In this document: one piece after another, positions 16,246-40,880 of the stretch | How positions within the stretch are numbered: position 1 is the first letter of the stretch | How the letters are laid out: the number at the start of each line of letters is the position of its first letter | From: Acidobacteriota bacterium | Lineage (GTDB): Bacteria; Acidobacteriota; Terriglobia; UBA7540 | Assembly: GCA_021838785.1 (NCBI GenBank) | Contig: JAKCCV010000003.1 | Coordinates: 20,001-84,000 of the forward strand | DNA length: 64,000 nucleotides | Direction: 5' to 3' | Notes under the pieces: model-generated | Database searches by the model: none | What the model was told of the DNA's origin: nothing | Seen by the model: the letters and a program-made list of their open reading frames with translations, nothing else | Position numbers and translations under genes: made by a program

Positions 16246-17517
16246 TCAGCGTGGTTTCAAACTGGCAACGAAGATGGAGCCGGCCAACATCGCCGCCGCA
16301 CCGTAGGCGAACGCTAGAGCAGGCGAGACACTGGCCCAAAGGATTCCTACCACGACGCTGGCGAGAAAATCCCCCAAGCCGTTGACGGCGCCGAGCATAC
16401 CGTAGGCTGTTCCGCGAGCTTCCGGCTGAGCCAAATCCGCCGTCAGCGCGCCTTCCACCGCTTCGCTCGCCGCCGCTGAGATACCTGCTAGAGAAAACAG
16501 CAGCAGGAAGATGGGGATCGAAGACCATTGCCACACAAACGCAGCGGCAAATCCGGCAGCGGCTGCGGCGCCAAAAAAATAGCCCGTCGCTAGCAAAAAA
16601 GCTCGCCCGAAGCGGTCCGAGAGCGCGCCTATCGGGTAAGCGGCTGCCGCGTACAAAACATTGTGCGCCACGTAAAGGAGCGCAGCAATCTGAGCTGCGT
16701 GCGCCAGGCCATAGCGCGGCGCGAGCCGTTGGGCGGCCGCCAGAATCATCAGAGTGCGGGCATAGTCGCCCAGGCCAAACAAGCCGATGCCCCACAGGGC
16801 TCGACGAAATGGAGCGGGCAACTTGCCTATATCGGAGCCCAAGCGAGCTGAGGAGTCGGAGCGGGGAATTTCTCTGACGAGCGCTGCGAAGCAGAGGCCG
16901 GCCGCCAGCCCGGGAATCAGGGTGCAGGCGAAAACAACCCTAAAAGGGAAAAGCGAACCGGCCCAGGGAAGATGGTGAAAATGCGCCCAAAGGGCTACCG
17001 CGATGAGCGGGCCAAGAACGGCGCCGGCCGTATCCCCGGCACGCTCAAATCCAAACGCTTTTCCGCGAGAAGACGATGGAACAGAGCTTGCCAACATGCT
17101 GTTTCGAGCCGGGCTTCGCACACCACGGCCTAGCCACGCGGCGGCCCGCGCGAGCAGAACCATTGGCCATCCTGCGGCGATAGCCAGAAGGCCGGTGGCG
17201 CCGCTGGTGAGGAAGTATCCGCCCACCACCAAAGGCTTGCGACGCTCGAGCCGGTCGGATAGCCGACCGGCCCAAAGCTTGGTCAAACTCATCAGTCCGT
17301 CCGCGACGCCCTCGATGAATCCCAAGGCAGCGGCGCTAACGCCGAGGGTGGCCAAAAATCCCGGCAGGATGGCCGTCGCCATCTCATGGCTGACGTCGGA
17401 GAGAAAGCTGGTCAGGCCCATGCCGAGGACCGTCCGGTTGAGCCACCTTTCCCGCTCTCGCCGGTCAGGAAATGGCGTTTCAGAGCGTTGCATACGCGTA
17501 AGACCATTTTGCAGCAT
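16246..17517 (-). CDS. Major facilitator superfamily transporter
   Basis: Inner-membrane secondary transporter with about twelve hydrophobic segments. The MFS loop 2-3 signature appears as KLWAGRLSDRLERRKPLVVGGY and its second-half counterpart as YPIGALSDRFGRAFLLATGY. WLGRGVRSPARNSMLA after helix 4 matches a subgroup of uncharacterised bacterial MFS proteins. The start is uncertain: GTG 17535, ATG 17517 and ATG 17493 are all in frame and none has a strong ribosome site. Substrate cannot be predicted. Confidence 0.85.
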   Translation of the reverse strand: MLQNGLTRMQRSETPFPDRRERERWLNRTVLGMGLTSFLSDVSHEMATAILPGFLATLGVSAAALGFIEGVADGLMSLTKLWAGRLSDRLERRKPLVVGGYFLTSGATGLLAIAAGWPMVLLARAAAWLGRGVRSPARNSMLASSVPSSSRGKAFGFERAGDTAGAVLGPLIAVALWAHFHHLPWAGSLFPFRVVFACTLIPGLAAGLCFAALVREIPRSDSSARLGSDIGKLPAPFRRALWGIGLFGLGDYARTLMILAAAQRLAPRYGLAHAAQIAALLYVAHNVLYAAAAYPIGALSDRFGRAFLLATGYFFGAAAAAGFAAAFVWQWSSIPIFLLLFSLAGISAAASEAVEGALTADLAQPEARGTAYGMLGAVNGLGDFLASVVVGILWASVSPALAFAYGAAAMLAGSIFVASLKPR

Positions 17518-17611
17518 CCCACGTTGGGAGGCCACTTACGAAATGCTGCGACGAATCTGGACCATAACGGCCATCGAACCGGCATGGCCCTCAAACAACG
17601 GCGTGGTCAGC

Positions 17612-18040
17612 CTATGGATTCTCGCTGTGGAGAGCCGCCTGGCGGATGCGCTCCGTATCCTGGAGCAAGGCGCGAATGTGCTGCCCCCACTCTTCTCGGT
17701 CGTCCGGCGCAAGTTCGCGGCCGTAACCCTTCATTCGCTCGGGTAGCGAGTCCTCAAGCATCACCCACAGGGACGAAAGCTCGGCCGCAATCACCTGCTG
17801 CGGCTCGGGTGCCCGACGCTGCACGTTAAAGCGGTCAGCAAGCTCTCGAACATGTCTCCGCATAACTTGGAGATGTTGGTGGGCTTGGTAAATCTGACGT
17901 TGCGTAAGCCTGACAGATGGAAGGCCTGCCTCGAGAAGGGCGCTCTGTTTTGCCAATATCCTCTCGATGCGCTCGATCGCATCCTCAATGAGGTTCACGA
18001 GGGTGGCCAACCGGCGCGCGTGAACTTCGTTCAATGCCAT
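17612..18040 (-). CDS. Hypothetical helical protein
   Basis: 142-residue soluble protein that I do not recognise. It is almost wholly alpha-helical, with a heptad-like N-terminal half (LVNLIEDAIERIERILAKQ) and a second helix rich in His, Gln and Arg. No signal peptide and no catalytic motif. ATG 18040 is chosen because the coding character begins there; the frame is open to 18181 but the upstream translation is low in complexity and lacks helix pattern. It lies 142 bp downstream of the fluoride operon on the same strand. Function unknown. Confidence 0.5.
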   Translation of the reverse strand: MALNEVHARRLATLVNLIEDAIERIERILAKQSALLEAGLPSVRLTQRQIYQAHQHLQVMRRHVRELADRFNVQRRAPEPQQVIAAELSSLWVMLEDSLPERMKGYGRELAPDDREEWGQHIRALLQDTERIRQAALHSENP

Positions 18041-28092: not shown

Positions 28093-28423
28093 GTCATGCT
28101 GAGCCAGCCGCTTCTTCGCCGCGCTCTTGCGGACAAACGCTCGGCCTCCCGAAACGGATAGGCGAATTCGGCCGTCCTCAAGAACCCTCGAGGAGAGCGT
28201 GGCGCGGCCGCCGAAATCACAGTTTTCGACAACATTTATACACTACCACGCCCGCGCTGGCGAAGGCGAGTTTTTTGGGTTGCGCTTTAATTTAGCCGGG
28301 CTTCGTGCTATCTTCACAGTGGGTGAGGCGCGTCGGCCCGCAAGCAGGGAGTTGAAACTCTCTCGTGGGGGAACGCCACCCGGATCCAATCATCACAGAA
28401 CACGATTGCACGGGAGGAATGCC
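28093..28423. other. Intergenic region between SRP RNA and lipoprotein gene
   Basis: About 330 bp between divergent transcripts. It should contain the promoters of ffs/dnaX and of the lipoprotein gene, but no element stands out beyond AT-rich patches near 28230-28300. No supported gene; open frames here lack coding character. Confidence 0.4.
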
Positions 28424-29152
28424 ATGACTAGAAAGGCTCAAGGGGCCACTATAGTCCTCTGTGTTTCTGTCGCGCTCCTTACGGGTTGCCAATCGAATAC
28501 GCCGCCGAACCAAAATCAGCCCGCCGCCACCAGTGCAAGCCCCGGTTCAACTTCCTCCGGGGCACCGAGTCGCCGCTCCGAGATGCGGAGCTCGGGGAGT
28601 CGCTCAACATCGGCACCCCAAGCCCAGACCGTCACGCTCACCGCCCCGGCGGGGACTCAAATCCCCATCCGGCTGGTTAGCAGTCTAAGCTCCGCCACGG
28701 CGCAGGCGGGAACCACGTTCCAGGGAACGCTGGCGCGTGCGCTCGTGGTTCAAGGAGTGGAAGTGGCTCCTGTCGGCAGCCGCGTTGACGGTCGGGTGAC
28801 GAATGCGGTCAGTTCGGGCCGATTGTCGCGCCCGGCCGAGCTTTCGCTCACGCTGGCTTCGCTAACTCCGCCTGGAGGGCAACCTATCCCCATCTCCACT
28901 TCCACTTGGAGCGCGTCGGGCCAGTCTCACAAAAAGCGTGACATTGAAATGATTGGCGGCGGCGCGGGGGTGGGAGCTTTGATTGGGGCGCTGGCAGGGC
29001 ACGGGAAAGGCGCAGCGATTGGTGCCGCGGTCGGAGCGGGCGCGGGCACCGCGGGCGCGGCCTACACCGGGAAAAAGGAAATCGTCCTTCAGCCCGAAAC
29101 GGAGCTGGTTTTTAAGCTGACCGCACCCGTCAGCTTCGCGGCGCAAAAATAA
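28424..29152 (+). CDS. Glycine-zipper lipoprotein
   Basis: 242-residue predicted lipoprotein. The signal ends in a lipobox (VALLTGC, Cys about residue 22), followed by a disordered Ser/Thr/Pro-rich linker. A beta domain (VTLTAPAGTQIPIRLVSSLSSA ... FQGTLARALVVQGVEVAPVGS) resembles TrbI/VirB10-like and secreted beta-barrel folds. Near the C terminus GGGAGVGALIGALAGHGKGAAIGAAVGAGAG is a glycine-zipper that may insert in a membrane. GGGAGGAAT lies upstream of ATG 28424; the upstream extension of the frame is not coding-like. Role unknown, probably envelope. Confidence 0.75.
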   Translation: MTRKAQGATIVLCVSVALLTGCQSNTPPNQNQPAATSASPGSTSSGAPSRRSEMRSSGSRSTSAPQAQTVTLTAPAGTQIPIRLVSSLSSATAQAGTTFQGTLARALVVQGVEVAPVGSRVDGRVTNAVSSGRLSRPAELSLTLASLTPPGGQPIPISTSTWSASGQSHKKRDIEMIGGGAGVGALIGALAGHGKGAAIGAAVGAGAGTAGAAYTGKKEIVLQPETELVFKLTAPVSFAAQK

Positions 29153-29463: not shown

Positions 29464-29493
29464 TTGACACCAGAGTTATATTCCACCTAGAAT
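29464..29493 (+). promoter_or_regulatory. Sigma70-like promoter before the exopolysaccharide-type operon
   Basis: A perfect TTGACA at 29464-29469 and TAGAAT at 29488-29493 are separated by 18 bases. It is the best promoter match in the 730 bp gap and points toward the HEAT/GT2 operon, giving a leader of about 385 nt. Confidence 0.5.
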
Positions 29494-29884
29494 GCAAGCC
29501 CTGATGGGGGCGTTGATTTTGCAAGTCGCCCGGAGACGAGGGCGCAAAATTGCAGGATGATAGGGATTCAGGAAGTCGCTTGGGGAGGGGCGGCTGTTGC
29601 AAGAACTCCAACGGTTGCTTCTCTCTCAATATCGTCGGTCTGAAATCAGGGGATTTTGCTGGCCCTACTGCGGCACAGGAAACGCTGGCCACGCTCCCTC
29701 ATGGGTGGTTGAGAGCAGCGGCCACGCGGGAAAGCCTTCCAGGGGGAAGATGGCTTTTGGGATATTCCGTCAAGTGTCTTTTGAAAGGTGCCGATGCTCC
29801 ATAGTTGGTGGGAGGAACTTAAGCGGGGGGCCAAGACGAGGAGCCTTGTCGGCGTCAAGGTTGCCCAATCAAAAGTAAAACTTC
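29494..29884 (+). other. Long untranslated leader with hairpins
   Basis: No convincing gene in this stretch. Two stable hairpins are visible: TTTTGC...GCCC pairing with GGGCGCAAAA at about 29517-29549, and AAAGCC-TTCC pairing with GGAA-GGCTTT at 29731-29757, followed by TTGGGATATT. I could not match it to the c-di-GMP or other riboswitch consensus sequences I know. The preceding 29153-29463 segment also shows no supported gene. Confidence 0.4.
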
Positions 29885-31369
29885 ATGCCCTTTCTTATTG
29901 AAAACATCATCAAGGTTGTCTTCGCGTTGCTCGTCCTCATCGTCATCGGCAACTTCGTCTTGATTGGGTTGGCGATTTCCCGGCGGCAGCGACGCGAAAA
30001 GTATTTTCAACGGATTGATGCGGTAAGAGCAGAATTTCGACCGGTTGTGGGAGAGGTTTTGTCCGGCCGAATGGAATATCAGGAAGGCTTGAAGCGCCTC
30101 CAACAAATCTCCGGGCTTGACCGTCTTTATCTGTTGGAGCAACTGCTGCTTGAGAAGAAGCCGAACCCGACGGAAGAACCCATCCTGCGTCGGCTTTGCG
30201 AGGATTTGGGGTTGGTTCGAATTTGGCAAAACCGTGTAAAGGGTCATGTGGATACGGCGTCGGTGCGGGAAGCGGTGGGCCGGCCAGAAGGCATCCTTGA
30301 ACGGGTGGGGCGATTGCGCTTTTTGATTCGCGCCAAAAGCGCGGAGAATTTGGGGATTATCCGACACCGAGACAGTTGGCCGCTGCTGGTAAAAGCTTTG
30401 GATGATCCGCACCCGGATATTCAGTCGGTCGCGGCGCGGGCGCTGGCCGCCATTCGCGAAACTGAAAGTTTTCCGGCTCTGGTGGCGCAACTCCACAAAG
30501 TGGTGCTGGACGCCTCCGCGACCGCTCTTTCCTTGCGGTCGGTGAAATCGGCGCTGGTGAGCTTCCCGTTGGATTGCGCCCCGGCCTTGGTTCGCTCACT
30601 CCAACACCCGAACCGCCGCATCCGTTTTCTGGCGACCGATATCCTGCGCGAGATGGTCTTGCGTGAGGCCAACGGTGACGGTCAATATGATCTCGACCGA
30701 AAGAGGGTCGGCGTGGAGATCGTCGAGATTTTCCTGACCCAATTGCCCTTCGATGAAAATCCCGATGTGCGAGCCCGCTCGGCGGCGGTGATCGCCTTTC
30801 TTCCCGATCCCCGCTCCACTCCGGCGCTTTTGACCCTGCTACGCGACGACACTTGGTTCGTCCGCCTGCACGCGGTCCGGGCGTTGGCGCGCCGAAAATT
30901 CCTCTCCCAAGCCGCCGAGATTGGCCAGGCGCTTTCCGATCCCAACTGGAGGGTGCGCGAAGCCGCCGTGGCGACGCTTCGGACGTATGGCGCTGCTGGC
31001 CTGAACCAATTGACTGCTCACTTTATCCATACCGACGACGCCTACAGCCGCGAGCAGGTGGCCGACGAGTTCCAACGAGCCGGACTCATCCCTGACCTGT
31101 TGCAACGGTATGCCAGTGAAGACGATTCCCAGGCCGCTCAGGTCCTGAACCGGATGGCTCGGATGGGCAAAACCGGATACTTGGTGAGCGTGCTCTCCGC
31201 GGATGCTCAGCCGGCCTTGCGCAAAAAATTCCTTCTGAACTTCGCCAGGAACCCGGACCCGCAGATCCGTCAATGGGTTGAGCGCGTCGCGTCCCAGGAG
31301 CCAGACCCCGACCTGCGAAGCGTCGCGGCCGCAGCCCTGGAGCCGCCTTCCGCGGCGGGGGAAGCCTAG
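29885..31369 (+). CDS. Membrane-anchored HEAT-repeat protein
   Basis: 494-residue protein with one N-terminal transmembrane helix (residues about 8-31) followed by RRQRREK, which places the rest in the cytoplasm. Residues about 160-480 are HEAT/PBS-lyase-like repeats (DDPHPDIQSVAARALAAI, NPDVRARSAAVIAFL, DDTWFVRLHAVRALARR, DPNWRVREAAVATL). HEAT arrays act as protein-binding scaffolds. The glycosyltransferase gene begins 4 bp after its stop, so a role as assembly or regulatory partner of the synthase is a reasonable inference. First gene of a five-gene operon. Confidence 0.8.
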   Translation: MPFLIENIIKVVFALLVLIVIGNFVLIGLAISRRQRREKYFQRIDAVRAEFRPVVGEVLSGRMEYQEGLKRLQQISGLDRLYLLEQLLLEKKPNPTEEPILRRLCEDLGLVRIWQNRVKGHVDTASVREAVGRPEGILERVGRLRFLIRAKSAENLGIIRHRDSWPLLVKALDDPHPDIQSVAARALAAIRETESFPALVAQLHKVVLDASATALSLRSVKSALVSFPLDCAPALVRSLQHPNRRIRFLATDILREMVLREANGDGQYDLDRKRVGVEIVEIFLTQLPFDENPDVRARSAAVIAFLPDPRSTPALLTLLRDDTWFVRLHAVRALARRKFLSQAAEIGQALSDPNWRVREAAVATLRTYGAAGLNQLTAHFIHTDDAYSREQVADEFQRAGLIPDLLQRYASEDDSQAAQVLNRMARMGKTGYLVSVLSADAQPALRKKFLLNFARNPDPQIRQWVERVASQEPDPDLRSVAAAALEPPSAAGEA

Positions 31370-31373
31370 CCTT

Positions 31374-32792
31374 ATGGAAGAATGGCGACAAATCTTTATC
31401 CACGGCATGGACATGTTCAATGTCGTGATCGTAGCCTACTTTTTCTTGGGCAACGGGATGTACACGATCTTGATGGTCATGTCCTTGATGGCGGTGTGGC
31501 TGCACAATCGTCGCCTGGCTTACCAGGGCTTGGATGAGATCCGCGAATCACCGGTGACGCCTCCGGTCACCGTCATTATCCCGGCGTGGAATGAGCAAGA
31601 AATCATCACCCAGACAACGGAATCCATTCTGCGCACCGATTATCCGGACGTTGAGGTCATCGTCGTGGATGACGGCTCGACGGACCAAACCTTGCAACGC
31701 CTGATGGATTACTTTCACCTGGTCAAGATGGATTTGATCTACCGTCCCCGCCTGGCCACGCGGTTGGTGCGGGGCTTCTACATGAACCCCGAGATTCCGA
31801 ATCTTTTGGTGATCAGCAAAGAGAACGGCGGCAAGCCGGATGCCCTCAACGTCGGTATCAACATGGCGCGCACGCCGTACTTCTGCACCCTCGACTCCGA
31901 TTCGATTTTGGAGCACGATGCGCTCCTGCGATTGATGCGCCCGGTGGTGCGCTCCCCGATCAACGTGGTTGCCAGCGGCGGCATTGTGCGCATCTTGAAC
32001 GGCTGTCGCGTGGAAAAGGGCCGCGTGGTCAGCGTCAGCCTGCCCAAGAGCCGCCTGGAGCGGTTTCAAGTGGTGGAGTACCTGCGGAGCTTTTTGTTCG
32101 GCCGCACCGGCTGGGACTTGTTCGGGGGGACGCTGATCGTTTCCGGAGCCTTTGCCGTGTTTCATCGAGAAACGGTCGTCGAGGCGGGGGGCTTTGAGCA
32201 TGATACGGTGACCGAGGATATGGACTTGATTGTCCAGCTTCACCATTGGGCCGTGCGCCATCACCGAAAAATTCGCATGTGCTTTACCTCGGATCCCGTC
32301 TGCTGGACGGAATGTCCTTCCACGGTGCGGATGCTGCAAAAGCAGCGGCGCCGCTGGCAACTGGGTCTTTGTCAAACGCTCTGGAAACACTCGGAGATGC
32401 TCTTCAACCGCGATTATGGGACGGTCGGATTTCTGAGCTTTCCGTTTCATCTTTATGTGGAGGCCCTGGGGGCAGCCGCCGAGTTTATGGGCTACTTCAT
32501 GGTTCCCCTCGCTTTTCTTTTCAACATGGTCCCCCCGCTCCTCTATTTGTTGTTTGTCCTCTTAAGCCTTGCGTACGGAGGACTGCTCTCGGTGGGCGCC
32601 GTGCTCTTGGAAGAACTCACCTACCGGCGCTATCCAAGCTTCCGGGAATTGACCACCCTGTTGTTCTTCGCGTTTCTGGAGAACATTGGCTACCGCCAGA
32701 TGGTGCTCTACTTCCGTTTCGAGGGAGTGGTCCGGTTCTTCGCGGGATTCCGACAATGGGAGAAGGTGACGCACGTCGGCGCCGGGTCTTAG
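31374..32792 (+). CDS. Membrane family 2 glycosyltransferase (processive polysaccharide synthase type)
   Basis: 472-residue inner-membrane synthase. One or two N-terminal helices precede the GT2 domain, which has VIIPAWNEQE, VVDDGSTDQT, ENGGKPDALNVGI, the metal-binding DSDS, the catalytic base in VTEDMDL and the QRRRW (Q-x-x-R-W) motif that marks processive enzymes such as cellulose, hyaluronan and PNAG synthases. Several C-terminal helices follow and would form the export channel. No PilZ domain is present. ATG 31374 is 4 bp after the upstream stop; the frame is open to 31278 but overlaps the HEAT gene. The polymer is unknown. Confidence 0.9.
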   Translation: MEEWRQIFIHGMDMFNVVIVAYFFLGNGMYTILMVMSLMAVWLHNRRLAYQGLDEIRESPVTPPVTVIIPAWNEQEIITQTTESILRTDYPDVEVIVVDDGSTDQTLQRLMDYFHLVKMDLIYRPRLATRLVRGFYMNPEIPNLLVISKENGGKPDALNVGINMARTPYFCTLDSDSILEHDALLRLMRPVVRSPINVVASGGIVRILNGCRVEKGRVVSVSLPKSRLERFQVVEYLRSFLFGRTGWDLFGGTLIVSGAFAVFHRETVVEAGGFEHDTVTEDMDLIVQLHHWAVRHHRKIRMCFTSDPVCWTECPSTVRMLQKQRRRWQLGLCQTLWKHSEMLFNRDYGTVGFLSFPFHLYVEALGAAAEFMGYFMVPLAFLFNMVPPLLYLLFVLLSLAYGGLLSVGAVLLEELTYRRYPSFRELTTLLFFAFLENIGYRQMVLYFRFEGVVRFFAGFRQWEKVTHVGAGS

Positions 32793-32795
32793 GCT

Positions 32796-35705
32796 ATGTC
32801 GCTTTTTTGGAATCGCATTGGCTTCTCGTTGCTGGTCATCGTGGTTCTCCTGTTCCTGTGGGAGTTCTGGGTGCGGCCGGTCAGCGGGCCGATTTACCTT
32901 GAAGCCGTCCACGAGTATCGCCAGGGGGATTATCTGCGGGCGCGCAGACTGTTGCAGCACGCCTACGCCATTGACCCCAACAACACCGATATCTTGACGC
33001 TGATGGGTTGGAACGAACTCAAACTGAACCATCTTCGGCACGCCAACCGTATCTTCTCCCGCGCCCATCAGCTCTCGCCGCACGCTTCCGACGCCACCCT
33101 CGGCTATGCCTACGCGCAAATTGCGCTGCACCACCTGCGCCGGGCGGAGGCTCTGCTCAACCAACTGCGCCGCCAAGGGGTGCGCTCGGTGGACACGCAC
33201 CTTGCTTGGGGAGTGGTTGACCGCAAAGAGGGCAGGAATCGCGCTGCGGCCCGCGAATTTGAAGCGGCTCTGGCCCAGCATCCCAACGATCCGTTGGCTC
33301 TCAAAAATCTGCGCCAACTTTACGACGTTACCGAAGCGCAGCTATCTCGTGTGCGCTTTGAACCCCTACGCCGAGCTGCTCGGCTGACCTATACCTCGCG
33401 TGTTCAAGGTGAAGACTTCGCGCGGAATCAGGGTGGCGCATGGAAGCCCTCTTATTGGACCGGGGTGGACCTGACCGCCGCGCTGCCCGGCCAGTTTCCT
33501 GTCCAATCGGCTCGCCGAGCCAGCGTGTACGCGGGATGGCTCGAACAGATCAGCGCCCTCGGGGTGAACACCGTGCGGGTTTCGACCATTATGCCACCCT
33601 CATTTTATCGAGCGTTGGTAGAATTCGATTCAGATCCTTCCCATCCGCCACTTTGGCTTTTGCAGGGCATCACTTTCCCCCGCCCCCCGCTCAATTACGA
33701 CCTTTTCAATCAGTCCTATGACGACGCCTGCGCCGCCGAACTGCGAGACGCCGTGGATGTTATTCATGGGCAAGGGGATGTGCCTGCCAATCATTTGCAC
33801 GCCGGAGGGCTCTACCCTAACGACGTGGCGCGTTGGGTGGCTGGGTTTGTGGTAGGCAATACGTGGGTTTCCCCGGTGGTCATTGGGAACAATCAACTCC
33901 ATCCCAACCTCACCAGCTATCACGGCAGTTACGTTCAGGTCCCCTCGGGCAGCCCCACCGAAATCTTCTTAGCCCAAATGATTGACCGTCTGGAAGAATA
34001 CGAGCAGCGCAAATATAACTGGCAACATCCAGCGGCCTTTCTCAACTGGCCCACGCTCGATCCGATGTACCATCCGACGGAAAGCACGATGGTGGAAGAA
34101 ATGGCCATTCGGCGTTCGCTGGGCGAGCGTTTCCTCACCCCGCCCGGCCCCTACGATGACGATGACGCGGTGACGGTTGACCCCACGCACCTTCATCCCA
34201 CCTCGAAATTTCCGGCCGGCTATTTTGCCGATTACAGCGTATTCCCGTTCTATCCTGACTTCATGAATGACGATCCCGGTTATCAGGCCGTGCGCGATAG
34301 CGAGGGCAGCGATCCTTTCCTTGGCTATCTGGAGGATTTGAAAGCCCACACGCCCGGGGTGCCGCTGGTCATCAGCGACTATGGCCTTCCGACGAGCCTC
34401 GGCATTGGACACTTTAGCCCCGCCGGTTTCAACGAAGGGGGACAAACCGAGGCGCAGCAGGGACATTTGCTGGCGCGAATGACCCGCAACATTTATGATG
34501 CCGGTGCAGCGGGAGGAATGGTATTTGAATGGCTGGACGAGTGGTTTCGTCGCTCATGGATTACCCGCAATTATGAAACCCCTGCGGCCGATAAGCCTTT
34601 GTGGACGAATTTCATGGACCCCTCGGAGTATTACGGCTTGGTGGCGGCGGACCCGGACCGAGCGTCGGCGCATCTCCTCGAGGGCGGGCCGGCGGGATGG
34701 GAGAACCTTACGCCGCTCTATTCCAAGTCCACGGCACAGCCATCTCGGCCGCTGGGGGACGGCTGGGATGCGGCGCGAAACCTGGTGGCGCTCTATGCTG
34801 ACGCCGATGAAGGTTTCCTCTATCTGAGGCTGGTCGTCAACCAACTCGACCCCAAGCACACCGGCCGACCCAACTGGAACAAGGTCAATTACCTGATTGC
34901 TATTTCAACCGATCCCGGACAGGCCGGGCTCAGATATCCGCCGGCCATCCAACCGGTGCAATTCCCGGACGGCATCACTTATGCCATTCAGATTTCCGGC
35001 CCGCAGTCGAGCCACATTTGGGTTGCTTCGACTTATGACCCTTACGAAATCATTCCGGTGCCGGGGCTACCCGGTGAGACCATGCTGACACAGCAACTTG
35101 GCTGGAATCCTGCCCTAAGCGACACAGGAACGTTTGAAGGTCAAATCATTGAGCCCAATCGCCGCCGTTACGGACGCAATGGGCAGTACTTCCCGGCAAT
35201 CCGTTACGACCGCGGCATTTTGAGGTATGGGACGCTCAACCCCGCCTCCCCTCACTACGATTCGCTCGCCGAGTGGTATGCGAGTGTTCGCAACAATGCC
35301 ATTTCGATCCGCATTCCGTGGGCTTTGCTCAATGTGACCGACCCGTCCACGCTTCGCGTTTTCGCCGGCCTGGCCAAGGATGGCACCGTCCTGACGAAGG
35401 TGACGCCGGGGTTTGAGATGGCGGCGTTTTCCTACCGCCCGAATCCCGCGGTTGCCTCCCGCCCGCTGATGGAGCAGGGACAGCCCATTACGGATGCCTT
35501 GCCGACATTGCCCGCGAACGGCGTGATGGCTCCGAGTCACCTTTCCAAGTTTCGTTGGCAAGGATGGACCCATCCGGCCTATACCTTGAGGCTTAAAGCA
35601 TCCTACGGCATTCTGCGGAAAGCCTTTCAGTCGTTGCCTTCCACGCCACCGCCTCTCAAGCCCGGCACGCGCAGCGCCGAAGTCAGGGGTAGAGCCGGGA
35701 GGTGA
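32796..35705 (+). CDS. TPR protein fused to GH-A-like barrel with altered catalytic residues and CBM9/DOMON-like domain
   Basis: 969-residue protein: transmembrane anchor (9-28), TPR repeats (about 33-185), a TIM-barrel-like domain (about 195-600) and a beta-sandwich resembling CBM9/DOMON domains (about 650-960). The barrel has the look of clan GH-A glycosidases: GFVVGNTW (354-357) occupies the place of the GNE(P/W) acid/base motif and PLVISDYG (Asp528) that of the nucleophile SEYG, followed by GGMVFEWLDEW. If this alignment holds, both catalytic Glu are replaced (Thr356, Asp528). It starts 3 bp after the GT2 stop. Likely periplasmic and polysaccharide-binding rather than cutting, by inference. 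Confidence 0.75.
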   Translation: MSLFWNRIGFSLLVIVVLLFLWEFWVRPVSGPIYLEAVHEYRQGDYLRARRLLQHAYAIDPNNTDILTLMGWNELKLNHLRHANRIFSRAHQLSPHASDATLGYAYAQIALHHLRRAEALLNQLRRQGVRSVDTHLAWGVVDRKEGRNRAAAREFEAALAQHPNDPLALKNLRQLYDVTEAQLSRVRFEPLRRAARLTYTSRVQGEDFARNQGGAWKPSYWTGVDLTAALPGQFPVQSARRASVYAGWLEQISALGVNTVRVSTIMPPSFYRALVEFDSDPSHPPLWLLQGITFPRPPLNYDLFNQSYDDACAAELRDAVDVIHGQGDVPANHLHAGGLYPNDVARWVAGFVVGNTWVSPVVIGNNQLHPNLTSYHGSYVQVPSGSPTEIFLAQMIDRLEEYEQRKYNWQHPAAFLNWPTLDPMYHPTESTMVEEMAIRRSLGERFLTPPGPYDDDDAVTVDPTHLHPTSKFPAGYFADYSVFPFYPDFMNDDPGYQAVRDSEGSDPFLGYLEDLKAHTPGVPLVISDYGLPTSLGIGHFSPAGFNEGGQTEAQQGHLLARMTRNIYDAGAAGGMVFEWLDEWFRRSWITRNYETPAADKPLWTNFMDPSEYYGLVAADPDRASAHLLEGGPAGWENLTPLYSKSTAQPSRPLGDGWDAARNLVALYADADEGFLYLRLVVNQLDPKHTGRPNWNKVNYLIAISTDPGQAGLRYPPAIQPVQFPDGITYAIQISGPQSSHIWVASTYDPYEIIPVPGLPGETMLTQQLGWNPALSDTGTFEGQIIEPNRRRYGRNGQYFPAIRYDRGILRYGTLNPASPHYDSLAEWYASVRNNAISIRIPWALLNVTDPSTLRVFAGLAKDGTVLTKVTPGFEMAAFSYRPNPAVASRPLMEQGQPITDALPTLPANGVMAPSHLSKFRWQGWTHPAYTLRLKASYGILRKAFQSLPSTPPPLKPGTRSAEVRGRAGR

Positions 35706-36715
35706 TGCCGCATCCAGGGGAGCTAAAATGGAATGAGTCGGCCGGCGAACAGAAGGCGATGAGGCGCAGGAACATCATGGTTGTGTTGTTGGTTTTCCTC
35801 GCCGCCAGTGTGGGCGCCGGCTACTGGGTTCTGGTTCACCCGGCGAGCATTTTTGTTCAGTGGGCAGAATCAGATTTTCCCCAACGGATCACAAAAATTT
35901 CCTTTGGCCCTTATCCGACGGCCCAGGACCTTCAGCGTTTCAAAGCGGCGGGGGGCAAGTACGTGGTGAGCTTGCTCGACCCGCGATTGCCATATGAGAA
36001 GGTTCTCCTGGAGCGGGAACAGGCGGAGGCCCGGGCCGACGGCTTGATCTTCAAGGATTTCCCGATGGCCAGCATTTTTGATCATCGGATTTTTAACAAC
36101 TACCGCCAAGAAGAGAAAAAGGCGGCTGAATTTTTGAAAAAGGCAGACGGCCCTTGTTACGTCCACTGTTATCTTGGCAAGCACCGAGTGATGCACGTGC
36201 GCGATGAGTTGATTCGGGAGGGAGTCTCGGCGCTGGATTGGACCCCCCTGGGCACCAACCGGCAATACTGGAATCTCGTCACTCGCCTGGATCGGGCCCA
36301 GAAGCATTTTGACAAAGACAATTTCGCAAAGGTTCTGGAAATTCTCCAGCCTATTACCCAAGGCGATGTGGACGTCGCGGCCCTGCGCGGGTGGTCTTAT
36401 TATCGTCTGGGTTTGTTTGAAGAGGCCGCGGCGGCGTTTCGGCAGGGGCTGAAATTGGAGCCGACCAACCCACGGAATTTGGAGGGCTTGGGATATTGTT
36501 ACCTTCAGCAGGGTCAGCCCGTGATGGCTGAACGGTTGTTTGAAAGGGTGCTCAATCAGATACCGGACCAGGAAGGGGCGATGGTCGGTGAGGGATTGGC
36601 GTATCTCGCCTTGCAGCAAAAGACGTTGGCGGCTGAAACCTTCCGCAAAGTGCTGGCGATGGATCCGACCAATGCGGAAGTTAAAAACTACCTTGAACGC
36701 GCCGACGCGGAGTAG
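35705..36715 (+). CDS. Membrane-anchored CX5R phosphatase-like domain with TPR repeats
   Basis: 336-residue protein. A transmembrane anchor (about 24-44) is followed by a dual-specificity/tyrosine-phosphatase-like domain: VHCYLGKHR holds Cys155 and Arg161 in the HCX5R signature, and DFPMAS (Asp118) could supply the general acid. TPR repeats fill about 195-335. Topology predicts an extracytoplasmic location, unusual for such phosphatases. The ATG overlaps the previous stop (TGATG); ATG 35759 is an alternative start. Within the operon it may act on a phosphorylated polymer, lipid or protein partner; this is not established. Confidence 0.7.
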   Translation: MPHPGELKWNESAGEQKAMRRRNIMVVLLVFLAASVGAGYWVLVHPASIFVQWAESDFPQRITKISFGPYPTAQDLQRFKAAGGKYVVSLLDPRLPYEKVLLEREQAEARADGLIFKDFPMASIFDHRIFNNYRQEEKKAAEFLKKADGPCYVHCYLGKHRVMHVRDELIREGVSALDWTPLGTNRQYWNLVTRLDRAQKHFDKDNFAKVLEILQPITQGDVDVAALRGWSYYRLGLFEEAAAAFRQGLKLEPTNPRNLEGLGYCYLQQGQPVMAERLFERVLNQIPDQEGAMVGEGLAYLALQQKTLAAETFRKVLAMDPTNAEVKNYLERADAE

Positions 36716-36807
36716 TGCGCACATCGGCCCCGCGGCCAAAGCGGTCGCCGAACCGGCGAGCCAAGGATGAACGCCGCCGGCCTCAAGGCACGGGGTGGAG
36801 GGGAAAG

Positions 36808-39800
36808 ATGAGGAGAATCACAAGAACGTTCCACGGGCTTCTTCTCGTGGGAATCCTGGCCACCGGTCGAGCGCTGGGCGCGCAAGCTCGCCGGCCCCAG
36901 AAGTTGTCCCCGCTCGAAATGCTGCAACGCGCCCACGCCTACTTCGTCGAGGGGGATTGCGATCAAGCGAGAAAATATTATCTGGAAGCGCTCAAATCCT
37001 TTCCAGACCACTTCGACATTTTCAAAAACCTTGGCGATTGCTATTTTGCCATGGGGCCGGAGAAATACGCTCAGGCAGCTACGTATTACGCTCAGGCCGA
37101 CGCGCTCAACCCGCGGTCGGCCGTGGTGGGCTCGCGACTGGCGGCATGTTACATGGCGCTTCACCGCTACGAAGCAGCGGCGGCCGTTTCTCTTCGACTT
37201 GCGCAGTTGCCGAATGCGCCTCCCGAGGCATGGCGGCGCGTGGCTGAAGCTTACGAAAACGCCCAGGACTGGTCCAAGGCAGCCTCGGCTTACAACACCT
37301 ATCTCCAGCGCAATCCTGACGACCTGCGCGCCCGTGTCCGGTTGGCTCGGATTGATGCCCGCCTGAAGTCCTACCACCAAGCGATGGAACAGTACCGCAT
37401 CCTTCTTTCCACCAATCCGGACTACCCCTCGGCGCTCGTCGGCATGGGTCAAATTCTTTCTTGGGAAGGTCAATTGGACCGCAGCTTGGTTCTGTTCAAT
37501 CGGGTTTTGCAAGAGGAACCTCACAATGCGGAGGCGGAATCGGGCAAGGCCTTTGTGCTGCTGTGGCAGGGACATGACCGACAGGCTTTAACCCTCTTCC
37601 AAAACCTGCACCGGCGCTTCCCCAACGATGCCGACGTGACGCACGGCCTTACGGAAGCCCACGATGCGCTGGAGCAGAAGGCCTTTCTCGCCGCCAAGAA
37701 GACGGGCAACGTTTCCGCCATCGTTGCTTACTATCGCCAGAGGCTGGCCAAAAATCCGCGCGACGTGGATGCCTTAAAAGCGCTCATGGCGTTTACGGCC
37801 AACCCCCAACAGTGCCAGCAGAGCATCGCCTACGGGCGGGAGGCGCTGCGACTTTCCGCCGGTGACCCCGACGTGGAGCTTGGCTTGGCTCGCTCACTCA
37901 CCCTCTGCCAGCATTACACGCAAGCCATTGCCCGTTACCGCGAGTATCTTGCCTCCCACCCTAACGCCGAAGGCGCGCTCTATGAACTGGGCGATACGCT
38001 CACGCGGGCACGTCGTTTATCGGAGGCCATCGCCACCTTCCGCCAACTGCTCCATGTGGACCCCAAGAACCTGGGGGGGCAAATTGGTTTAGCTCAGGAT
38101 TTAGCGGCCACGGGGCAATACGGCGAGGCCAGGAAGGAATTCGACCTTGCGCTCCAGCAAGCGCCGAACAATTATGAGGCTTTGCAGGGCAAAGCCTACC
38201 TTCTGTACTATCAAAACGATTTTGCCGAGGCGCGCAGCATTTTCCAGAGCCTGGAAGCTCAAAACCCCGGCGATCCCCAGAACGCTCAGGCGCTGCGGGA
38301 CATCTCCAAGGCGGAAGAACAGGCCCGGTGGGCAGCGCTTCGCCCGGCCCCCGACGCTCCCCCACAAGCTTGGCTCAAGTTCTACCGCGAAAGACTGGCG
38401 AGCTACCCCAACGATCGTGATGCCTTGAAGGGTTTGGCCTATGTGGAGGCGGAGCTCAACAACGCTCCCGCCGCCATCGCCGGTTACCGGCACGTGCTCG
38501 AGCTCTACCCCCATGACCGAGGCGCTATGCTGGAGTTAGCCCACCTGTTGAGTCTCAATCGGCAATACCTGGCTTCGATTCAGCTTTACCAGGAGGTCTT
38601 AAAGGAAACGCCCGACGATCCCGCGGTTCTGCAGGATTTGGCGCGCGTGGAAGTGTGGGCAGGCCATGATTTCTCCGCCCTCAAAATTTACCAGCATCTT
38701 CTCGCCTCCGAGCCTTCCAACACCGGTTATCAGTTGGAGGTGGCGAGCCTCGAAGCAAGGCTGAAGCAGTACCCGGCGGCAGAAAACACGCTGGCTTCTC
38801 TGCTTGCCGAGGAGCCTGAAAATCGCGACGCTCGGCTGGAAATTGCCCACTTGGATCTCGCGCAGGGTCAGCTTGACTCGGCCCTCCAAAATTTTGAGAT
38901 TCTGCTCAAACACAATCCGCAAGACCCTGACGCGCTGCTCGGCCAAGCTGAGATTAACTATCGGCAGGGAAAACTTGCGCAGGCCCGGGCCTCGGCCTCC
39001 CAGGCACTCCAAGCCCGCCCTAAAGATTTCTCGAGTCTGTTTTTGATGGCCAGCATCGAGCACGCCCAGGGGCATCGCAAGCAAGCTTTAGAGTTGCTCC
39101 GCCAGGCGGACGCCGCGAGCCCGGGTAATCCGGAAGTCGCCTCGCTCCGCCAAGCAATCTTGTCGGAGTCGCGGGTCACCGTTTCAACCACGGTTGCCTA
39201 CGCGCGGGAGATTGGTCCGCCTTCGAGTTCCGGCAAAGCCACCGGCCTGGCCAACGAAGACCTTCGCATGTTTACCTATGGCACCACGGTGGCGGCATCG
39301 CTGATGCCCAAGACCACATCGTTTTTCACCTTCAACTCCATGCCCTCTGATAGCCCGCCCAGTCCGTTTCGAAACGCGCTCGGTTATCCCCTGCCAACCG
39401 GCATTACGGGTGCCGCGGCCCCGGCAGAATATCTCTATCGCCAATCCACCGACATCACCCCTCACTTCCAGATGCGAGGCGGTATCGGGGTGGTGCGGTT
39501 TGGACCGGGTGATCTGGTCAGCCTGGGTGGCCAAACGGAGTTAGTGCCCTCCGCTCGACAGCGGGTCCTATGGCAAGCCGGCATCAGCTATCTGCCCACG
39601 ACGCGGCTGGATATTGCCCTCGATGCCATTCGTTCACCTTACGCGTACACTCCCATCGCGGCACGTTATGGATTGATTGAGGACGAGTTCCGCGCCCAAC
39701 TGCGCTACAACTTTAACCCTCGGACCCGCCTCTATCTGGCCTACGCTTACGGTCGCTTCTCCACCGAAAGCTACGACCACTATGCGCCTGTCTCCGGCCA

Positions 39801-40230
39801 AGCCTTGGGCAGCTATGCGGAGACCGATCGCGCCAATTTCGGCTGGTTCAGGTTCACCCACACCTTTTACGAGTCGGAGCGTTTTTCCGTTGACGGAGGA
39901 TATTCCGGGAGGGTTTACGGCTTTACCCATCGGCAACATCCTTTCCTGGGCTTCTATAACCCTAACCTGTACCAACTCCACGAGTTAGTTTCGCGAATTT
40001 ATGGAAAGTTCTGGGGGCCCATCGGTTATGACATTGCCGGTGGATTGGGAATTCAGCAAGCCGGCCGAGGACAAGCCCTCACTCGCGCTTGGGACGTGAC
40101 CCCAGCTTTTTCGCTGCAAGTCTCGCGCAACCTTCTTTTAACTCTCAGCTACACGCACTACAACACAGCCCAAGCCCTTGGCCCGCTGCGCGGCAATGCC
40201 GTTCAGTTGAATTCTCAGTGGAAGTTTTGA
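36808..40230 (+). CDS. Outer-membrane TPR / beta-barrel export protein (BcsC/PgaA-like)
   Basis: 1140-residue exported protein. A signal peptide (residues 1-25, ending ALGAQA) is followed by about 20 TPR repeats up to residue 800, for example YHQAMEQYRILLSTNPDYPSA. The last 330 residues are alternating aromatic beta strands ending in VQLNSQWKF; a terminal Phe is the mark of outer-membrane barrels. The layout matches BcsC, AlgK-AlgE and PgaA-type secretion proteins. ATG 36808 has GGAGGGG upstream and starts the signal peptide; the frame opens at 36715. As last gene of the operon it would provide the outer-membrane pore. Confidence 0.85.
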   Translation: MRRITRTFHGLLLVGILATGRALGAQARRPQKLSPLEMLQRAHAYFVEGDCDQARKYYLEALKSFPDHFDIFKNLGDCYFAMGPEKYAQAATYYAQADALNPRSAVVGSRLAACYMALHRYEAAAAVSLRLAQLPNAPPEAWRRVAEAYENAQDWSKAASAYNTYLQRNPDDLRARVRLARIDARLKSYHQAMEQYRILLSTNPDYPSALVGMGQILSWEGQLDRSLVLFNRVLQEEPHNAEAESGKAFVLLWQGHDRQALTLFQNLHRRFPNDADVTHGLTEAHDALEQKAFLAAKKTGNVSAIVAYYRQRLAKNPRDVDALKALMAFTANPQQCQQSIAYGREALRLSAGDPDVELGLARSLTLCQHYTQAIARYREYLASHPNAEGALYELGDTLTRARRLSEAIATFRQLLHVDPKNLGGQIGLAQDLAATGQYGEARKEFDLALQQAPNNYEALQGKAYLLYYQNDFAEARSIFQSLEAQNPGDPQNAQALRDISKAEEQARWAALRPAPDAPPQAWLKFYRERLASYPNDRDALKGLAYVEAELNNAPAAIAGYRHVLELYPHDRGAMLELAHLLSLNRQYLASIQLYQEVLKETPDDPAVLQDLARVEVWAGHDFSALKIYQHLLASEPSNTGYQLEVASLEARLKQYPAAENTLASLLAEEPENRDARLEIAHLDLAQGQLDSALQNFEILLKHNPQDPDALLGQAEINYRQGKLAQARASASQALQARPKDFSSLFLMASIEHAQGHRKQALELLRQADAASPGNPEVASLRQAILSESRVTVSTTVAYAREIGPPSSSGKATGLANEDLRMFTYGTTVAASLMPKTTSFFTFNSMPSDSPPSPFRNALGYPLPTGITGAAAPAEYLYRQSTDITPHFQMRGGIGVVRFGPGDLVSLGGQTELVPSARQRVLWQAGISYLPTTRLDIALDAIRSPYAYTPIAARYGLIEDEFRAQLRYNFNPRTRLYLAYAYGRFSTESYDHYAPVSGQALGSYAETDRANFGWFRFTHTFYESERFSVDGGYSGRVYGFTHRQHPFLGFYNPNLYQLHELVSRIYGKFWGPIGYDIAGGLGIQQAGRGQALTRAWDVTPAFSLQVSRNLLLTLSYTHYNTAQALGPLRGNAVQLNSQWKF

Positions 40231-40234
40231 CAAG

Positions 40235-40279
40235 GGGCTCGGTCCCTTGCGCCGCCCAAGCGCTCGTGTCACCGAGCCC
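40235..40279 (+). terminator. Stem-loop after the exopolysaccharide-type operon
   Basis: GGGCTCGGT (40235-40243) pairs perfectly with ACCGAGCCC (40271-40279). A shorter hairpin, CAAGGG with CCCTTG, overlaps it. No T tract follows, so it is a possible Rho-assisted or mRNA-protecting terminator only. Confidence 0.4.
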
Positions 40280-40880
40280 TCCGCTCGTCGGCTCGGCAAG
40301 GCCAATCCGCGGCTCTATCCTTCACGCGCCATCCTCCAGACAACCCTCGACACTCTCGGACGGATCTTCCTCGTAGAAATTTGGTGATGTGCTTGTGCTC
40401 ACAAGACCTAGCCCGAAGCTGCACGAGCCCTCGGAAAGTATTCTACTGCTTCCCAGAGGGATAGCGTCAGAATTAGTTTCCGGTTACTGGCAACGTTCGC
40501 GTCCGCTCATAAGCCCGCGCCTGGCGCGGCGTGGGCTCCAGCACTTGTCGGAACGTCAGGTTGGAAGCATCCCGCCGCATCTCGTAGGTGATCTTCGCCC
40601 GGCTCGCCAGTTCCAACGGCAGCGTCCGAAAGCTGCGCACCGGGGAACCCTCCGCCGTCTCGTGGGAACGCTTCTTGGCGTGATCTGAGGCGGAAGGTTT
40701 CGCGCAGGAAGATGGGTTCACCGGACGCCTACGAAGATGGGCGGGGAAGTTGCGGTTGGGGATGGTTTCGATGTAGATGGGATTTCTTATTCATCCTTGG
40801 CCGTGTTACAGCGCGGGCGGGGCGCCCGTGCCACAGACCTTGCAACCATCGCCATTCAGAAACTCCGAGGCCCTCTCGCC
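40280..40880. other. Gene-poor region with possible small ORF
   Basis: 600 bp between convergent operons. One minus-strand frame (GTG 40721 to stop 40473, 82 residues) contains a plausible segment, KITYEMRRDASNLTFRQVLE, and might be a small gene or a remnant of one; there is no good ribosome site and I do not recognise it. A partial copy of the palindromic repeat lies at 40813-40834. Nothing else is supported. Confidence 0.3.
40813..40834. repeat. Dispersed palindromic repeat, partial copy B
   Basis: GCGGGCGGGGCGCCCGTGCCAC is half of the repeat seen at 25828-25879 and 56797-56848: the CGGGCG...CGCCCGTGCCAC arm without the CACGGCCATGATGGCC arm. Confidence 0.5.

Follow-up and report, generated by a model that had tools for sequence, protein, structure and literature searches.

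We analysed a 64,000-nt stretch of contig JAKCCV010000003.1 from a soil Acidobacteriota bacterium (the window, from whose first letter all positions are counted), in which five + strand genes, spanning positions 29885-40230 and each free of internal stops, probably form one synthase-dependent exopolysaccharide machine, Pga-like in its working and built differently. We give this reading a probability of roughly 0.75. Among its grounds are a predicted processive family 2 glycosyltransferase (GT2), a predicted outer-membrane barrel of the polysaccharide-export class, and a gene neighbourhood that is conserved among relatives. The core of the set recurs in many phyla, matches no described polysaccharide-secretion system in its composition and looks like an overlooked relative of the machines that make biofilm polymers. 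Much of the matrix of biofilms is the product of synthase-dependent systems, of which, to our knowledge, few have been described. The five genes and the sites discussed with them are:

29464..29493, + strand: promoter-like site TTGACA-N18-TAGAAT, 11 of 12 consensus matches, 29464 marking the -35 element
29885..31369, + strand: gene 1, HEAT-repeat protein, 494 aa (HEAT_2 PF13646, 99.7 bits; gene directly before the GT2 gene in relatives)
31374..32792, + strand: gene 2, processive-type GT2 polysaccharide synthase, 472 aa (PF00535, PF13641, motifs and terminal hydrophobic segments)
32796..35705, + strand: gene 3, membrane-anchored protein with TPRs, a predicted GH-A-type barrel and a C-terminal beta-rich domain, 969 aa (TPR Pfam matches, AlphaFold2, Foldseek)
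34044..34064, + strand: NWPTLDP motif of gene 3, residues 417-423, after the fourth barrel strand (Trp in 57/57 sequences)
34374..34385, + strand: SDYG motif of gene 3 (Asp528), at the seventh-strand nucleophile position (Glu 52/57, Asp 5/57)
35702..36715, + strand: gene 4, membrane-anchored TPR and CX5R phosphatase-like protein, 337 aa from GTG, accessory (motif, hydrophobic segment)
36715..40230, + strand: gene 5, TPR and predicted outer-membrane 16-strand beta-barrel exporter, 1171 aa from GTG (TPR_19, AlphaFold2, Foldseek)

Predicted synthase and exporter

The product of gene 2 matches the GT2 Pfam models PF00535 and PF13641 at 84-85 bits, carries the motifs DDG, DxD, TED and QRRRW (the last at residues 324-328), and has hydrophobic segments near its N-terminus and in its C-terminal part, features that together predict an inner-membrane processive synthase of the kind on which synthase-dependent systems are built. 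Its best NCBIfam model is PgaC_IcaA (TIGR03937), with 126.4 bits against a cut-off of 422.3, well short of the equivalog threshold. E. coli PgaC is 28% identical to it, and a profile of the GT2 family, compared with four E. coli proteins, ranks PgaC (125 bits) above YaiP (63), BcsA (40) and NfrB (18).

Gene 5 may start at GTG 36715 or at ATG 36808 (Met32), where a signal peptide begins. TPR_19 matches its product with 210 bits, the C-terminal residue is Phe, and an AlphaFold2 model built from 37 aligned sequences shows a barrel of 16 strands with a mean predicted local distance difference test score (pLDDT) of 84.4. Among Foldseek matches to this barrel BcsC is best, with PgaA (4y25, TMt 0.81) and PelB also ahead of general porins. 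The PgaA_barrel model PF21197 is passed by the barrel of one relative (L034, 29.2 against a cut-off of 27) and has no match in the window's own barrel. This protein is thus predicted to join TPRs to a pore in the outer membrane. Taken against the general definition of synthase-dependent systems, which includes a co-polymerase or a c-di-GMP-binding domain or subunit (PMC7112194), the predicted synthase and exporter fit the class, and the anchored GH-like and CX5R proteins are putative enzymes of the periplasmic modification type.

The HEAT protein and a putative chain-handling protein

The HEAT protein begins with a hydrophobic segment (residues 1-34) followed by RRQRR. It probably has this one N-terminal membrane helix and, because the positive charges come after the helix, its repeats are probably cytoplasmic. 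A PilZ domain was found by Pfam in none of the five cluster proteins; the same genome has 21 PilZ matches outside the cluster. The position of its gene makes the HEAT protein a candidate co-subunit of the synthase.

In gene 3, TPRs at the start of the protein score far over the Pfam cut-offs, and the GH-like part returned no Pfam match and no meaningful PDB match in sequence searches. An AlphaFold2 model from 57 sequences reached a mean pLDDT of 92.2 and a predicted template modelling score (pTM) of 0.92, and Foldseek placed GH157 first and GH2 next, at 10-12% identity, from which we are confident of a predicted clan GH-A TIM-barrel fold. The catalytic positions were assigned from motifs and their place relative to the strands rather than by superposing structures. 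So located, the acid/base position, normally the Glu of an NEP motif, holds Trp throughout the 57 sequences. At the nucleophile position 52 sequences have Glu; the exceptions, with Asp, are the window's domain and the four homologues closest to it. The pair of catalytic Glu residues that follows strands 4 and 7 in clan GH-A is therefore not present in the window's domain. We infer that hydrolysis by this domain is weak, altered or absent. All 301 relatives recovered in the scan described below appear to lie outside any Pfam family (11 tested).

The same domain seems to be put to a different use in contigs from Ignavibacteria, Flavobacteriales and Cloacimonas (L142, L134 and L135), where no GT2 or HEAT gene was detected in the examined sequence. 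There the next gene after the GH-like one is conserved, encodes about 620 aa and starts near 'PKVLFITTGD' (L142:4305-6155, L134:3315-5177, L135:5399-6441).

Most of what the initial annotation had described from the letters of the window agrees with these results. Its five genes on one strand, with gaps of 4, 3 and about 0 bp, reappear in the open reading frame calls; its HEAT protein, QRRRW-bearing GT2, anchored TPR proteins and TPR/barrel protein ending in Phe are borne out by Pfam matches and sequence features; structure prediction, which it had named as the check on an outer-membrane barrel, returned one; its degenerate GH-A barrel is backed by the model, the GH157 and GH2 matches and the invariant Trp; and the absence of PilZ holds for the cluster.

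Gene neighbourhood across phyla

The GH-like domain was sought in 84,980 species genomes, which yielded the 301 relatives, and neighbourhoods were read in the 80 best of these. The 80 come from Acidobacteriota, Gemmatimonadota, Nitrospirota, Desulfobacterota-type metagenome-assembled genomes, a cyanobacterium, Lysobacter, Bacteroidota, a spirochaete and Firmicutes. A GT2 gene lies nearby in 43 of them, and directly before it stands a HEAT gene in 40 of the 43, the remaining three including a locus cut by the contig end (L065). Of the 42 loci with full flanks, 36 have a barrel gene in the vicinity of GH. Culturable relatives with the set include Geothrix species (loci L088, L089, L101, L102, L108, L109). 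Since the set recurs across phyla, among them Gemmatimonadota, Nitrospirota and Desulfobacterota, it is not a chance grouping.

Within a panel of 199 Acidobacteriota genomes, 24 have a convincing GH-like domain (a 25th match is short, E 1.4e-4), and all 24 belong to the 46 in which the GT2 has a close relative. Under random placement this co-occurrence has a probability of 1.4e-18, a figure that ignores phylogeny and is hence indicative only. The HEAT match adjoins the GT2 in 15 of the 16 Acidobacteriota genomes that have one. HEAT-GT2 pairs also occur in genomes that have no GH-like gene (G059, G145, G185 and others), and we therefore take HEAT-GT2 to be the core and the rest to be attached to it.

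Three Firmicutes loci (L137, L138, L141) carry a regulator, HEAT, GT2 and GH, with no barrel detected, a pattern that would follow if the barrel's function were bound to an outer membrane. In many relatives a single-domain response regulator of about 130 aa lies between the barrel and HEAT genes (L032:2734-3120, L034:5068-5466 and equivalents); it is absent from the window's cluster, and could possibly be a control input for the synthase.

The exchangeable slot between GH and barrel

Gene 4 may start at GTG 35702 or at ATG 35759 (Met20), and its product has a hydrophobic segment (residues 23-47) preceded by RRR. The motif HCYLGKHR at residues 155-162 has the form of an HCX5R loop and is invariant in the 6 sequences compared. 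No CX5R phosphatase profile is matched above its curated cut-off, the best match being to PF03162, in the homologue L067 only (E 3.3e-4, 20.7 bits against a cut-off of 27); the invariant motif and this sub-threshold match are the grounds for the phosphatase-like label.

The gene is present in 6 of 61 relatives, all within the window's family, in which the order HEAT-GT2-GH-barrel is constant whether or not the CX5R gene is there. Where present, it always follows the GH gene and, contig permitting, precedes the barrel gene. The same slot is empty in other close relatives and holds a PgaB/IcaB-like deacetylase in nine Nitrospirota or Desulfobacterota-type loci (L086, L087, L091, L107, L111, L113, L115, L122, L132). 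The L087 deacetylase, the only one scored, has a twin-arginine signal and PgaB (TIGR03938) as its best model, with 126.8 bits against 321.9, IcaB ranking third. Judged by these gene orders, the CX5R gene is a local, family-specific accessory in a slot filled elsewhere by a deacetylase or by nothing.

The five genes had initially been annotated as a unit. The neighbourhood search upholds HEAT, GT2, GH and TPR/barrel, though not the CX5R gene, so that what stands of the unit is the HEAT-GT2 core, usually with GH and barrel, and not the five-gene set. This leaves room for an alternative in which the machine consists of HEAT, GT2, GH and barrel only, and the CX5R gene is a passenger of one family with some other periplasmic phosphate function, as its rarity and its absence from close relatives that have the remaining set might suggest. 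We consider this rather unlikely in view of the gene's constant place, which is the deacetylase slot of other phyla, and of the anchored-TPR design that its product shares with its neighbours.

In Gemmatimonadota the PTP profile gave weak matches 3-4 kb before the GH gene (L075, L077, L085, L094, L116, L119). They were set aside because the iterated profile may have drifted and because, in the two loci inspected (L077, L116), an opposite-strand gene lies in between. The GH loci of this phylum have in common an upstream gene that is divergent and encodes about 500-550 aa ('VVLHADPEGRVRILFPLDP'; L077:3437-5104, L116:7453-8961), beyond which lies a small HCX5R phosphatase-like gene.

Leader and promoter-like site

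Genes 1 and 2 are separated by 4 bp, genes 2 and 3 by 3 bp and genes 3 and 4 by about 0 bp, and genes 4 and 5 are about 0 or 92 bp apart, as set by the choice of the gene 5 start. The span first annotated began at 29464, which proves to be the -35 of the promoter-like site; the coding part begins at 29885. TTGACA and CCTAGAAT are kept in the congener L063 and also in the diverged congener L064, where both hexamers are retained although the surrounding leader has diverged. In the promoter scan as a whole, promoter-like sites were no commoner than in shuffled sequence, but this conservation lends the site modest independent support. The tight spacing and the conserved site were counted in favour of one five-gene machine, which may be transcribed as a unit. 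A search of the 390-nt leader against Rfam, with E values up to 1 allowed, gave no match, and a c-di-GMP or other riboswitch in it was rejected on that basis.

Directly upstream, the open reading frame at 28127-29152 has a glycine-zipper-like end and scores 26.2 bits with PF13441, just under the cut-off. A similar sequence ('LVVAAGTEFSVRLEETLSSASSHNGDSFAGTLDQPLVV') occurs in L154 at 16696-17661, about 3.3 kb upstream of HEAT.

Proposed mechanism and its alternatives

We propose that the GT2 would polymerise a sugar at the cytoplasmic side and thread the chain through the inner membrane. The sugar would most likely be a beta-linked N-acetylhexosamine, as the GT2 is near PgaC and relatives carry a PgaB-like deacetylase. 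The membrane-anchored HEAT protein would bind the synthase from the cytoplasm and possibly control it, taking the place of PgaD or of a PilZ domain. Once in the periplasm, the chain would be received by the TPR/GH-like protein. Because the usual acid/base residue is missing from its barrel, this protein probably does not act as an ordinary hydrolase and instead binds the chain, steers it or trims it slowly. The CX5R protein would fill the family-specific processing slot, whose enzyme would modify the chain, and the TPR/16-strand barrel would export the polymer.

Several observations weigh against this reading. Sugar specificity is not readable from sequence, and the window's cluster has no deacetylase, so the case for an N-acetylhexosamine depends on relatives. 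GH stands without a nearby GT2 in 13 of 42 full-flank loci, mostly in Gemmatimonadota, and the HEAT-GT2 pairs of GH-less genomes show that the link of GH and barrel to the pair is not a strict one. The co-occurrence counts disregard shared ancestry.

One could also speculate that the locus is a divergent Pga operon for poly-N-acetylglucosamine (PNAG), in which the GT2 is PgaC, the GH-like domain the hydrolase half of PgaB, the barrel PgaA and the HEAT protein a substitute for PgaD. PgaC is indeed nearest to the GT2, relatives have a PgaB-like deacetylase and the barrel fold is PgaA-like, but the GT2 score lies far under the PgaC_IcaA cut-off, the HEAT family profile matches no E. coli Pga protein and PF21197 fails on the window's barrel. 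As to PgaB, the GH-like family profile misses the E. coli protein, the fold matches are GH157 and GH2, and PgaB is not found among the 50 Foldseek matches listed; the idea that the domain is its hydrolase half accordingly found no support. We judge a divergent Pga operon unlikely. That the GT2 instead glycosylates a lipid or protein, beside a barrel and TPR proteins of another, merely adjacent envelope function, is very unlikely: lipid glycosyltransferases exist among GT2 families and HEAT-GT2 pairs are known without barrel and GH, but QRRRW with terminal membrane segments is typical of processive synthases, the barrel belongs to the polysaccharide-export class and the gene linkage recurs across phyla.

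Within the exopolysaccharide-machine reading, a broader proposal, to which we would give somewhat less than even odds, is a cross-phylum synthase-dependent class in which a HEAT/GT2 core replaces the PgaD- or PilZ-type co-subunit, a new GH-A-like family handles the chain, and the polymer is tailored at an exchangeable slot in the periplasm that is taken by a deacetylase, by a phosphatase or left vacant, the slot of the window's family holding an extracytoplasmic phosphatase that acts on polymer or carrier. If true, HEAT-linked synthases would be a widespread added class, conserved in phyla that range from Acidobacteriota to Nitrospirota, Desulfobacterota, Gemmatimonadota and Firmicutes, and present in bacteria of soil and subsurface for which little is known about the chemistry of the matrix. 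The control of a synthase that has neither a PilZ domain nor PgaD would become a testable question, and from the content of the slot one could predict in which lineages the polymer is deacetylated.

Comparison with known systems

The initial annotation had called the cluster a synthase-dependent exopolysaccharide machine of unusual composition, with HEAT and an export-type barrel, unlike known systems. The composition is supported. An open-access, phrase-based literature search, which is weak evidence of absence, found no published HEAT-GT2 exopolysaccharide system or same gene set, and a systematic operon survey of synthase-dependent systems leaves HEAT unmentioned in its main text (PMC7112194). 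The cluster is nevertheless nearer to Pga than had been assumed, with a GT2 nearest PgaC and a relative's barrel that passes PF21197. By curated cut-offs and predicted subunits the window's system is a member of neither Pga nor Bcs.

With Pga/Hms (PgaABCD) it shares the PgaC-like GT2, the TPR and 16-strand PgaA-type barrel, a periplasmic barrel-fold carbohydrate protein and, in several relatives' clusters, a PgaB/IcaB-like deacetylase. It differs in its HEAT protein, in the distance of its GT2 from PgaC, in a GH-A-type domain unrelated in sequence to PgaB, and in having a CX5R/TPR protein and no deacetylase. No PgaD-like gene was seen among the five cluster genes, a search of the remaining genome for PgaD not having been made; PgaB (TIGR03938) has no match in the cluster and only a 72-bit match elsewhere in the genome. 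A 591-aa frame in this genome (G000:C30:2605-4275, - strand) matches both GT2 and a PgaB-like deacetylase, apparently a fused protein, with a second GT2 gene beside it (C30:6336-6983).

Bcs (BcsABZC) likewise has a GT2 with QxxRW, a periplasmic glycosidase-type protein and a TPR-barrel exporter, BcsC being the top fold match of the window's barrel. The window's cluster differs in that it has no PilZ domain, BcsB was not seen in it, the similarity of its GT2 to BcsA is distant (40 bits with the family profile, and 51.9 against a cut-off of 699.1 for the CelA/BcsA model TIGR03030), and its glycosidase-like protein matches GH-A folds and no cellulase model. NfrA/NfrB and YaiO/YaiP of E. coli also pair a GT2 with an outer-membrane partner; they have no HEAT protein, and the barrel profile of the window's family matches PgaA and not YaiO (NfrA was not compared). 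The clan GH-A glycosidases of GH157 and GH2 share the predicted fold of the GH-like domain, which differs from them in its low identity, in Trp at the acid/base and Asp at the nucleophile position, and in being joined to TPRs and a membrane anchor.

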